A DNA stretch of 64,000 bases. Origin: Phototrophicus methaneseepsis (GTDB lineage Bacteria; Chloroflexota; Anaerolineae; Aggregatilineales; Phototrophicaceae). Positions 4,004-6,707 of this stretch are shown here, piece after piece. The stretch lies in the NCBI RefSeq assembly GCF_015500095.1, contig NZ_CP062983.1, positions 2,914,001 through 2,978,000 on the forward strand, read 5' to 3'. Numbering within the stretch: the stretch's first letter is position 1; each line of letters starts with the position of its first letter. The notes under the pieces were generated by a model, which saw only the letters and a program-made list of their open reading frames with translations, was not told the origin of the DNA and made no database searches. A program made the translations under genes and the position numbers.

Positions 4004-4972
4004 ATGCTACGTGAACGGACCGAACAAATCCGCCAACAAGTGCATGAGATGGCAACGGAATGGTGGTCGCAGCGCAGTGAGGCGACCCAGCTTTTGCCGG
4101 GTTACGTCTGGCGTGCTGTTCGTAACTATTTGCGTGGTGGTTCCCGGCAGGCCGCTGCATTGGCCTATTATGCGATCTTTTCCGTTTTCCCGCTGGTGTT
4201 GCTGCTAGCTGTTGGCGTGGGGAGCCTGGTTGGTCCAGCCGTGGCGCAGGATCAGATTGCGAGCGGGTTACAACTCTTCTTGCCAGAAACCACAGTGATA
4301 GAAATTCAGGACACCATCGGTGCAGCCGTAAATCAGAGTACTGAGTTTAGTCTGATCGCGTTGGCAGGTCTGGTATGGTCTGCGACAGGGTTGTTCTCAA
4401 ATATCACGCTCGCTCTGGATACGATCTTTGCTGTGCCTGCAATACGCAGTTTATGGCGCATGCGGTTGCTCGCTGTGCTGATGGGCTTAACGCTCGTCAC
4501 ACTGGTCTTGGCTTCTTTTATCACATCCGGGGTGCTGCGGCTCTTACAAACCCCTGCTCTGGAACTAAATGTCTGGCTGACTATTGGCATCTGGTTTTTA
4601 CCGTTGGGCCTGGATCTGGTGATTTTTGCATTGCTGTTCCGCTATGTGCCAGCTCGCCATGTGCATTGGGATGCTGTCTGGCCTGCGGCTGTTTTTGGTG
4701 CAGTCGGTTGGGAAGTCGCCAAACAATCCTTCGAATGGTATCTGGGTAATCTGAACAACTTCAACTTGATCTATGGTGGTATTGCGACAGGTATTGTGCT
4801 GTTGTTCTGGGCATTTTTAATTGCTTCGATTTTTCTCTTTAGTGCGGAGCTTTGTGCGCGGCTTAACGAGTGGCTGATCGACTTGCGGGAGCGCGAAGCT
4901 CAACGGCGTATGGAAGAGCAGCCTATGGTCACGCTACACGGCCATCGTCGGACCCATTTTTTGGATTCCTGA
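4004..4972 (+). CDS. YihY/BrkB-family integral membrane protein
   Basis: The 322-residue protein matches the YihY/virulence-factor-BrkB family. Early residues include the family stretch GGSRQAAALAYYAIFSVFPLVLLL, and later come FLPETT, GLVWSATGLFSNI, FLPLGLDLVIFALLFRYVPAR and the C-terminal region with WEVAKQSFEWYLGN and YGGIATGIVLLFWAFL. Six hydrophobic segments are visible, followed by a charged cytosolic tail. The molecular role of this family is not settled (it was once misnamed ribonuclease BN). The gene has its own upstream region and ends before a bidirectional terminator at 5031-5055. The ribosome binding site is weak (GGTGAT), so the start is only moderately certain. Confidence 0.9.
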   Translation: MLRERTEQIRQQVHEMATEWWSQRSEATQLLPGYVWRAVRNYLRGGSRQAAALAYYAIFSVFPLVLLLAVGVGSLVGPAVAQDQIASGLQLFLPETTVIEIQDTIGAAVNQSTEFSLIALAGLVWSATGLFSNITLALDTIFAVPAIRSLWRMRLLAVLMGLTLVTLVLASFITSGVLRLLQTPALELNVWLTIGIWFLPLGLDLVIFALLFRYVPARHVHWDAVWPAAVFGAVGWEVAKQSFEWYLGNLNNFNLIYGGIATGIVLLFWAFLIASIFLFSAELCARLNEWLIDLREREAQRRMEEQPMVTLHGHRRTHFLDS

Positions 4973-5030
4973 GTGGCCTGTGTGTTACGTATCTGCGCAT
5001 TAAGTGTGTAAGGTGACGAAGATAAAAATA

Positions 5031-5055
5031 AAAAGAGGGCATTGCGCCCTCTTTT
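5031..5055. terminator. Bidirectional terminator between yihY and the small-protein genes
   Basis: AAAAGAGGGC (5031-5040) pairs perfectly with GCCCTCTTTT (5046-5055) around the loop ATTGC. It has T-runs on both strands and so can end the YihY transcript (+) and the small-protein transcript (-). Confidence 0.85.
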
Positions 5056-5076
5056 GTTTACATTATGCGGTTGTTT

Positions 5077-5250
5077 TTACTCAGCGGCGATGGATTTGCC
5101 GAGTTGGATGATGCTGCGGCCAATGGCCTTGCGAATCACGCCAACTTCTTGATTTTGGCGGATTGCTTCGCGTGCGATACGGTCCAGCTCAGCGCGTTGT
5201 TCCATATACCGAATACGTGATTGATGTTCTTGAAGGTGACTGTAATCCAT
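5077..5250 (-). CDS. Small amphipathic helical protein (57 aa), unknown
   Basis: The start at 5250 is preceded by GGAGAG with 6 bases of spacing, which argues that this is a real gene rather than chance. The 57-residue product is almost all helix-forming and charged. It opens MDYSHLQEHQSRIRYMEQRA and ends with an amphipathic stretch VIRKAIGRSIIQLGKSIAAE. It has no Cys and no signal peptide. The preceding small gene (5297-5518) ends 46 bases upstream, and the two share a similar layout: a hydrophilic N-terminal helix, then a basic amphipathic helix near the end. A strong terminator follows. I do not recognise the family. A peripheral membrane-binding or nucleic-acid-associated role is possible but unsupported. 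Confidence 0.6.
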   Translation of the reverse strand: MDYSHLQEHQSRIRYMEQRAELDRIAREAIRQNQEVGVIRKAIGRSIIQLGKSIAAE

Positions 5251-5296
5251 GATCTTCTCTCCGACGATGCCGCTCACTGGCGACATGGTTAAATGG

Positions 5297-5518
5297 CTAG
5301 CTGTTTTGTTGCTGTAGACGCATGTGTCTGCGTCCGACGGTTTCTTCAGAGCGCGCCTGAACGAACATGTTTGCGAGTCGTTCCCGCCAGGTCAGGCGCA
5401 ATGCAGTGAAGTTGTTGTTTCTTATATGTTTTTGATCTGATTGTCGTTGCTGCGCTTTGCGCAGGGTCTCTTGCATATGTAGTTCGTTGAGACGTTGCGC
5501 GTCATACCTCATAGTCAT
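5297..5518 (-). CDS. Small basic helical protein (73 aa), unknown
   Basis: The ATG at 5518 is preceded by AAAGGGAG at a suitable distance. The 73-residue product (opening MTMRYDAQRLNELHMQETLR) is rich in Gln, Arg and Asn. It contains the amphipathic segment LTWRERLANMFVQA near residues 42-55, and its tail is basic and glutamine-rich. It lies upstream of the 57-residue gene on the same strand. Two strong terminators (5621-5657 and 5690-5725) lie between it and the nearest good promoter, so expression needs read-through or a local promoter; TATAGATTATAT in its 5' region could serve. No family is recognised. Confidence 0.6.
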   Translation of the reverse strand: MTMRYDAQRLNELHMQETLRKAQQRQSDQKHIRNNNFTALRLTWRERLANMFVQARSEETVGRRHMRLQQQNS

Positions 5519-5620
5519 GATGACTGCTCCCTTTAATGCCTTGCCTGAACATCTTGATAATTGGGTGCCGATATAATCTATACCGGACAAGCGACTTGCA
5601 GGCTGTTCGCAAAGGTGCAG

Positions 5621-5657
5621 TAATTAAAAACAGCCGTTAGACATAGTCACGGCTGTT
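5621..5657 (-). terminator. Second tandem terminator upstream of the small-protein genes
   Basis: Read on the minus strand, AACAGCCGT pairs with ACGGCTGTT (5629-5637 with 5649-5657), an unbroken 9-pair stem followed by TTTAATT. It lies downstream of the first terminator and upstream of the 73-residue gene on the same strand. Confidence 0.75.
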
Positions 5658-5689
5658 GAGCGCATTGATCGTTAAATGACGAAGGGCGC

Positions 5690-5725
5690 TAAATTAAAAA
5701 CAGCCGCGAGTTTGGCCCGTGGCTG
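5690..5725 (-). terminator. First tandem terminator, after the 20-codon ORF
   Basis: On the minus strand, CAGCC-A-CGGG pairs with CTCG-C-GGCTG (5701-5725) and is followed by TTTTTAATTT. It begins about 30 bases after the stop of the 20-codon ORF, the place expected for an intrinsic terminator or an attenuator. Confidence 0.75.
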
Positions 5726-5754
5726 CTTGAGGTTGTTATGCTACCGAAGCGAGC

Positions 5755-5817
5755 CTACAGGCACATTGCTGCATCATATGCGATTGTCCCAGCCTTGCCG
5801 AACATTGATGGCAACAT
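5755..5817 (-). CDS. 20-residue ORF with strong ribosome binding site; leader peptide or microprotein
   Basis: An ATG at 5817 is preceded by AAAGGAGC with 7 bases of spacing. It opens a 20-codon frame encoding MLPSMFGKAGTIAYDAAMCL. A promoter-like TTGACA lies about 90 bases upstream, and a strong terminator lies just downstream. The peptide is mildly hydrophobic and shows no run of one amino acid that would mark a classic amino-acid attenuator. Good initiation signal, promoter and terminator in the right order support a real transcript. Whether the peptide or the act of translation matters is open. Only the sequence layout supports this call. Confidence 0.4.
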   Translation of the reverse strand: MLPSMFGKAGTIAYDAAMCL

Positions 5818-5881
5818 GTGCTGTGCTCCTTTCGGGCGTGATTAGTCAAAGTGTGTTTGTGTCATCGCTGATGACTTTGAT

Positions 5882-5911
5882 AGAGTATCATAGGTTGTTG
5901 GTCGGTGTCAA
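5882..5911 (-). promoter_or_regulatory. Sigma70-like promoter for the small-protein locus
   Basis: On the minus strand a perfect -35 TTGACA (5906-5911) is separated by 18 bases from TACTCT (5882-5887), which carries an extended -10 TG one base before it. The start site would fall near 5875, giving a leader of about 60 bases before the 20-codon ORF. Confidence 0.5.
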
Positions 5912-6107: not shown

Positions 6108-6707
6108 ATGAGTGACGAACCACAATACATGGATTTTGACCCTGATGGCGACGACATCGTTGATCGTGTTGTTGTCGATCATGCTTCGCCTTCAACAGAC
6201 CGTAGTGTCGCAAGACGCGTCGCTTTGCAGGCGTTATATGAGATCGATGCGGCGGGCCACGCGCCAGGGGATGTGTTACTAAATATGATCACGGACGATG
6301 AAGATGTGCGCAAGGTTCGCGCATATATTCGTCGCCTTGTAACCGGCATTCTAGCTCACCGTGGTAATCTCGATGAGGTATTACAGACATATGCGCCGGA
6401 ATTCCCATTGCAGCAAATTGCCGTAGTTGATAGGAATGTCTTACGGATTGCCCTCTATGAAATGGCGATTGGTACGCGTACGCCGATTGGCGTTGCTATT
6501 GATGAAGCCGTTGAGTTGGCAAAGTTATTCGGTGCAGATGGTTCTGCTCGGTTTGTAAATGGCGTGCTTGGGACGATTGCTCTGAATATTGAGCCGCTGC
6601 GTGCTCAGTTGCGCGGTGAGGGCATGCCTGATGAAGATGACGACTTTGACGATGATTATATTGATGAAGCGGAGCCTGAAACAGAGCCGCCATCACCGTT
6701 GGACTAA
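6108..6707 (+). CDS. nusB: Transcription antitermination factor NusB
   Basis: NusB binds boxA RNA with NusE (S10) and supports antitermination on rRNA operons. The family core runs from about residue 30 to 165: SVARRVALQALYEIDAAG, then VRAYIRRLVTGILAHR, the central AVVDRNVLRIALYEM, and VAIDEAVELAKLFGADGSARFVNGVLG. At 199 residues it is longer than the usual 130-150 because of an acidic N-terminal extension (about 30 residues) and a very acidic C-terminal tail (DEDDDFDDDYIDEAEPETE). The gene is alone, is followed by a strong terminator, and has a weak ribosome binding site. The 290-base region before it, from the minus-strand promoter at 5911, shows no other gene. Confidence 0.95.
   Translation: MSDEPQYMDFDPDGDDIVDRVVVDHASPSTDRSVARRVALQALYEIDAAGHAPGDVLLNMITDDEDVRKVRAYIRRLVTGILAHRGNLDEVLQTYAPEFPLQQIAVVDRNVLRIALYEMAIGTRTPIGVAIDEAVELAKLFGADGSARFVNGVLGTIALNIEPLRAQLRGEGMPDEDDDFDDDYIDEAEPETEPPSPLD

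Follow-up and report, generated by a model that had tools for sequence, protein, structure and literature searches.

Background

In Bacillus subtilis, the ABC-F resistance gene vmlR is preceded by an upstream ORF (uORF) for the tripeptide MIN, which lies in an anti-antiterminator hairpin followed by an antiterminator and an intrinsic terminator, with read-through when the ribosome stalls (PMC9226507). The bmrB leader of the same organism places a leader ORF and alternative stem-loops before an ABC exporter, the multidrug transporter bmrCD, which is induced by ribosome-targeting antibiotics (PMC4191407). In Sinorhizobium meliloti, a uORF attenuator precedes a DUF1127 small-protein gene, has its ribosome site paired with uORF codons and responds to tetracycline (PMC12218461), while in Escherichia coli one uORF, toiL of topAI, senses several classes of ribosome inhibitors (PMC12121999). 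Among the matches listed, the open-licence PMC literature held no leader of this kind in Chloroflexota or Anaerolineae, and the terms Chloroflex and Anaerolinea do not occur in PMC2965389.

The locus described here belongs to a 64,000-nucleotide stretch of the Phototrophicus methaneseepsis genome (the whole stretch is called the window) and is probably a ribosome-mediated transcription attenuator, in which an anti-antiterminator, an antiterminator and two relay-linked terminators would control an operon for two small proteins. For this locus and its relatives we computed the pairing segments, their alternative complementarity and cognate preference, the conserved ORF geometry, the predicted switch of the leader and the classes of the genes that follow related leaders. 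By analogy, the layout is that of vmlR plus a second terminator that would work in relay, the likeness being one of layout and not of aligned sequences. A few of the elements also have apparent three-codon ORFs that recall MIN, and some precede ABC-F-like genes. Unlike in vmlR, the ORFs are usually 20–40 codons long with a stop codon at a fixed distance past segment 2 (the end of the short ORF) in 40/66 elements, a second terminator is often tied in by pairing of segments 4 and 5, and the window has two small proteins without known family in place of a resistance gene. The bmrB leader differs in that its terminator lies within the 53-aa leader coding region, and a tandem relay is not described in the parts of PMC4191407 consulted. 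Termination in the S. meliloti case is attributed in PMC12218461 to a factor, presumably Rho, and no Pfam DUF1127 match is listed for the window proteins at E up to 10; toiL acts via translation repression and Rho, not via intrinsic terminators (PMC12121999).

Layout of the locus and its conservation next to nusB

The order and coordinates given in the earlier note for the promoter, the 20-codon ORF, the terminators and the two genes on the minus strand were right. The features, in the direction of transcription of the leader, are:

6108-6707, plus strand: nusB, divergent from the leader (Pfam NusB, E 9e-31)
5884-5911, minus strand: promoter-like site TTGACA-16-GATACT (TTGACA 5911-5906, GATACT 5889-5884; 10/12)
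5816-5830, minus strand: segment 1, AGGAGCACAGCACAT, formed by the Shine-Dalgarno (SD) AGGAG (5830-5826) and spacer; can pair with segment 2
5755-5817, minus strand: 20-codon leader ORF, MLPSMFGKAGTIAYDAAMCL (ORF reading, SD AGGAG upstream)
5751-5766, minus strand: segment 2, ATGTGCCTGTAGGCTC, end of the short ORF; can pair with segment 1 or 3
5696-5728, minus strand: terminator 1, segments 3 and 4, AAGCAGCCACGGG-CCAAA-CTCGCGGCTGTTT, then a T run; segment 3 can pair with segment 2
5626-5657, minus strand: terminator 2, segments 5 and 6, AACAGCCGT..ACGGCTGTT, then a T run; segment 5 can pair with segment 4
5297-5518, minus strand: 73-residue gene, first after the switch (ORF; syntenic 74-aa counterpart in a related genome, G001)
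5077-5250, minus strand: 57-residue gene (ORF; match of 48% identity in G001, E 5e-10)
5031-5055, minus strand, also reading on the plus strand: final, bidirectional terminator between the operon and brkB/yihY (terminator scan)
4004-4972, plus strand: convergent brkB/yihY (Pfam BrkB, E 1e-49)

Taken alone, neither the promoter-like sites (5 in the stretch vs. 3.3 in shuffles) nor the terminator-like sites (4 vs. 2.6) are clearly above chance. The TTGACA-like and −10-like boxes do occupy matching positions across the aligned leaders. The simple terminator scan lists neither terminator 1 nor terminator 2, which we put down to the stem mismatch in the former and the 11-nt loop in the latter. A copy of about 30 bases of the final terminator (window 5025-5055; 94%) is found elsewhere in the genome (G000:C1:925182-925211). 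The window also carries, at 421-876, a putative IS200/IS605-type transposase ORF.

A single further genome of the genus, G001, was among those searched; there the order runs brkB, a 56-aa gene, a 74-aa gene, the leader and nusB. The leader is again divergent from nusB and consists of a promoter, an SD, a 23-codon ORF, hairpin 1 and terminator 2; the hairpin of terminator 1 is without a T run there, so that regulation would depend entirely on the relay to terminator 2. In the DNA alignment of the two genomes, identity is 65% for the leader ORF, 58% from the promoter to terminator 2, 54% and 43% for the 57- and 73-aa genes and 44% for the interval between terminator 2 and the 73-aa gene. In the taxonomic family, nusB is present in 95/98 genomes, and the regions upstream of 91 of these 95 nusB genes were examined. 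Scan and reading together recognized in 17/91 regions, the window included, a divergent leader that has an SD, an ORF and a terminator; the strict scan returned 16/91 on the leader strand, of which L013 and L025 do not resemble the others, vs. 2/91 on the other strand. Since the same nusB-divergent layout recurs in G001 and in 17/91 family regions, we consider it real beyond chance; the earlier note had named missing conservation in close relatives as what would speak against its reading, and conservation was found in both places. Behind the family leaders that were read lie one to a few small-protein genes, and in four loci (L005, L016, L069 and L113) an ABC ATPase gene follows the leader.

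Predicted switch of the window's leader

While the leader is free of ribosomes, segment 1 would pair with segment 2 (1:2, other pairings being written likewise), 3:4 and 5:6 would fold as terminators, and transcription would end at about 5696 or 5626. Under normal translation, the terminating ribosome would sit on segment 2 and both terminators would form as well. A ribosome stalled on the first codons would instead cover segment 1, leaving segment 2 to capture segment 3; the freed segment 4 would then capture segment 5, neither terminator would form, and the polymerase would read through into the 73- and 57-residue genes. This scheme presumes that the leader ORF is translated, and its usual signal would be ribosome-blocking antibiotics.

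The minimum-energy fold of the 256-nt leader contains 1:2 together with terminators 1 and 2 (−87.1 kcal/mol). When the nucleotides that a ribosome at the first codons would cover are barred from pairing, 2:3 and 4:5 appear and both terminators are gone (−66.0), while both stay with a 28-nt mask inside the ORF or with segment 2 alone masked. The 2:3 duplex has an energy of −16.9, or −12.0 with shorter segments, and the 4:5 duplex one of −18.9. As in attenuators of the vmlR/bmrCD type, a leader ORF with a ribosome site and two intrinsic terminators precede the first gene, and complementarity and folding yield mutually exclusive anti-antiterminator, antiterminator and terminator pairings. The earlier note had proposed either an attenuated or anti-terminated operon or a small stand-alone transcript next to a second unit; the first of these readings gains computational support from the cognate-preferring alternative pairings, the predicted fold switch, the conserved ORF geometry and the related leaders before large genes. 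In the Rfam search, no listed match (E up to 1) reached its gathering score, all being sub-threshold. A type I toxin mRNA, whose 5′-3′ pairing hides the ribosome site, was considered and seems less likely: no membrane stretch in the peptides was clear by eye, and an operon follows.

Pairing and ORF geometry across elements

Leaders of different genera have in common a pairing of the ribosome site with a stretch close to the ORF end (for example AGACGCAATA with TATTGCGTCT, AGGAGCAAT with ATTGCTCTT, and GGCGCATAA with TTATGCGCC), and this segment 2 stretch is also complementary to terminator 1, in its 5′ arm and loop. For cognate 1:2 partners, 18 leaders gave −15.3 vs. −11.5 kcal/mol for swapped ones (0/20,000 permutations), and for 2:3 partners −15.0 vs. 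−13.7 (262/20,000; one segment misplaced). In the larger set of 74 elements, the values were −12.57 vs. −10.81 kcal/mol for 1:2 and −17.94 vs. −15.87 kcal/mol for 2:3, and 50 elements gave −20.50 vs. −15.35 for 4:5, each with 0/20,000 permutations. The cognate preference persists in non-redundant subsets of 48 (1:2), 48 (2:3) and 28 (4:5) elements, although the permutations ignore phylogeny and such subsets thin kinship but do not remove it. Segment 2 is the best partner of segment 3 within the leader in 49/74 elements and not the best in 25/74, and a second terminator lies at most 160 nt away in 50/72 elements vs. 21/720 shuffles.

An SD and a start codon stand at segment 1 in 66/74 elements, including the window, and are absent by the scan rule in the other 8. 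Because the first leaders had been selected for an ORF, the open frame was counted in 54 held-out elements; the leader frame runs uninterrupted to segment 2 in 49 of these, compared with 23 and 17 for the two other frames. Relative to the end of segment 2, the stop codon falls between −6 and +45 nt in 61/66 elements and at exactly +13 nt in 40/66. In four g12 leaders (L038, L039, L042 and L050) the stop codon touches terminator 1, and the switch may work differently there because a terminating ribosome would cover or block the terminator arm. The three-codon ORFs are apparent in L136, L139, L144 and L146 (M-V-L, M-V-H, M-F-S and M-V-Q; L139 and L146 from the scan, L136 and L144 by eye), which precede GNAT acetyltransferase or methyltransferase genes.

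The ends of the leader peptides bear on two other explanations. Were the peptide, with its conserved C-terminal PCR[SI]AP[VA]xx, functional in itself or able to arrest the ribosome, RNA pairing would be secondary, and the retention of Arg in 33/37 peptides picked by [RQC][SIN]A[PSL] through four codons (CGT, CGC, CGG, AGA) agrees with this. In the same peptides, however, Ala is always GCG and Pro is CCT in 33/37, as pairing needs, 12 elements carry the RNA motif in a different reading frame, and the motif is absent from the window peptide; we regard a peptide signal of this sort as improbable. The conserved peptide end (ASAC, IAPVR) as a signal on its own had been dropped for that occurrence in other frames in 12 elements. 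It is very unlikely, in our judgment, that the locus is an amino-acid attenuator whose ORF senses charged tRNA (e.g., Cys or Arg) and controls an uptake or synthesis operon: PCR[SI]AP occurs in 18/66 leader peptides, with Cys and Arg frequent there, and several peptides end in Cys, but runs of a single codon were not seen by eye, the motif falls in other frames in 12/62 tallied elements, the window's included, the window peptide contains one Cys and no Arg, and the scanned downstream genes encode mainly ABC ATPases and acetyltransferases.

Folding of related leaders

The proposed ribosome-mediated attenuator was also followed by folding in the related leaders. In the free RNA up to the end of terminator 1, 1:2 and terminator 1 occur together in 63/73 leaders. 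With segment 1 masked and the fold taken up to the last arm, 2:3 forms in 71/73 (vs. 410/730 with the letters of segment 2 permuted), and terminator 1 is present in 72/73 when it is segment 2 that is masked. When nothing masks segment 1 and the fold stops short of the last arm, the minimum fold has 2:3 in 66/73 and 1:2 in 26/73 leaders (1:2 with permuted letters, 113/730); because 2:3 dominates at this stage, the choice between the two pairings would be a matter of timing.

For the 47 complete two-terminator leaders at equilibrium, masking segment 1 gave 2:3 in 20 vs. 2 when free, both terminators in 25 vs. 34, and neither terminator in 15 vs. 11 already when free; the corresponding numbers under a control mask were 3, 33 and 12. 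As this whole-leader switch is only partial at equilibrium, the model has to assume a kinetic advantage. The switch of the window's own leader is complete in its predicted folds.

Spread of the element and presumed membership of the window copy

The first covariance model (R1) describes helix 1:2 and terminator 1 only, and the 2:3 and 4:5 pairs are in none of the models. R1 matches 16/98 genomes of the family and 41/154 of the order, 25 of the latter outside the family. A second model (R2), built from 49 elements, matches 165/396 genomes of the class (113/222 genera). In the phylum it matches 38/400 genomes; the 6 that lie outside the class have weak matches throughout (E 1e-5 to 9e-4). About 60 of the matched loci, not every match, were read individually. 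Matches near E 1e-3 are uncertain because one genome, the window's, has a match of 25 bits within a coding region (a 518-codon ORF). Outside the class, the locus L191 has a leader ORF, segment 2 and a terminator, and scores 31.4 bits with R3, the model from which the window copy was left out; its leader ORF, translated by eye, holds CSAPA.

The window copy is a training row of both R1 and R2. R3 scores it with 22.3 bits (E 2.4e-4 over the 80.5 kb searched), and no other match in the window is better; genome-wide it ranks second with E 0.017, within noise, behind the 25-bit match in the 518-codon ORF. R3 does not match the G001 leader, R1 finds no match anywhere in G001, and the whole-genome searches with R2 missed the window's genome (G000). 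Membership is therefore argued from the 2:3 and 4:5 pairings, which no model contains, and from the small-protein operon and the position at nusB; on these grounds we hold the window copy to be a presumptive divergent member of a Chloroflexota element.

Genes behind related leaders

Outside the family, a script picked one downstream gene of at least 90 codons per locus and skipped smaller ones. Such a gene follows on the sense strand in 55/58 loci, less than 240 nt of downstream DNA having been examined in the remaining 3. According to Pfam (E up to 1e-5), the 55 genes include 30 with ABC_tran, 18 with Acetyltransf_1, 6 with the ABC-F linker ABC_tran_Xtn, 2 with RIO1, 1 RtcB and 1 methyltransferase, counts that are not independent since many loci are orthologous. 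The NCBIfam comparison likens one ABC ATPase to DrrA (TIGR01188, E 2e-74), while a ribosomal-protection model matches two ABC-F-like proteins (E 4.2e-87 and 3.5e-95), all below the curated cut-offs. The RIO1-type kinase genes (L132 and L153) are an unusual target for such an attenuator, and the RtcB gene lies about 530 nt downstream of its leader, in a locus that we identify from its sequence as L164. An ABC permease is encoded on the leader's contig in three relatives (G002, G005 and G023) and was not found in the window's genome, in G001 or in five other family genomes.

These genes also weigh on whether the leader is a small structured RNA or small mRNA standing alone, with the two small genes forming a separate unit under their own promoter. 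Strong terminators do close the first unit, and a weak promoter-like site (9/12) lies inside it at 5801-5773, one of the 5 sites set against 3.3 in shuffles. However, sense-strand genes follow the leaders in 55/58 loci, and terminator 2 has a locus-specific complementarity to terminator 1 for which a stand-alone transcript would have no need; it is less likely for these two reasons, and we think it an unlikely account of the locus.

The two small proteins

The 57-residue protein shares 48% identity with its G001 counterpart (56 aa) and the 73-residue protein 25% with its own (74 aa). Searches of 101 relatives matched the former in 3, itself included, and the latter only in itself, its G001 counterpart being known by synteny. 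The 73-residue protein has no Pfam or NCBIfam family, and the 57-residue protein has no NCBIfam family and no Pfam family at cut-off; I_LWEQ was tried for it and rejected (E 0.018, 15.5 bits vs. a cut-off of 27.5). AlphaFold2 predicts a single long helix for each, with pLDDT 87 (3 sequences) for the 57-residue and 77 (2 sequences) for the 73-residue protein, and their net charges without His are +2 and +7. The idea of the earlier note that both end in basic amphipathic helices is not supported, as the hydrophobic moment is not clearly above shuffles: its largest value was reached by 213/2000 shuffles (57 aa) and 1127/2000 shuffles (73 aa).

The small proteins of the family share a helix with a Q/R-A-E/Q..R core (profile A9, 18 rows, one nearly invariant Ala). 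A9 matches 40/98 family genomes, a figure from which no count is drawn because most of the best matches are rows on which it was trained, and those that are weak (E 1e-6 to 1e-3) may reflect helices of a generic sort. G001 contains a paralogue of the 57-residue protein (L006 1498-1656, L175 4001-4153) beside a gene that by eye encodes a small membrane protein; the other neighbour is presumably a Dps-like gene. The type of regulator suggests a role for the small proteins when ribosomes stall; as related leaders precede genes that resemble those for drug export and ribosome protection, we infer that the 73- and 57-residue proteins may act in the response to ribosome-blocking antibiotics.

Implications

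We tentatively propose, as a possibility that falls somewhat short of an even chance, that the leader is a portable, class-wide ribosome-stress sensor of Chloroflexota, in which a six-segment relay would stand before at least five unrelated classes of genes (ABC exporters, ABC-F proteins, GNAT acetyltransferases, RIO1 kinases and methyltransferases) and, in the window's lineage, would drive small helical proteins of a so far unknown family that share a QAE..RL core, these acting as new survival effectors under ribosome-blocking antibiotics. The relay, in which the freed arm of the first terminator dismantles the second, would explain why two terminators follow one another and why they have sequence in common. 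The leader would provide a testable rule for the phylum, namely that the genes behind it should rise when ribosomes stall, and it would mark exporters, acetyltransferases and small proteins that are so far uncharacterised as candidate antibiotic-response genes.
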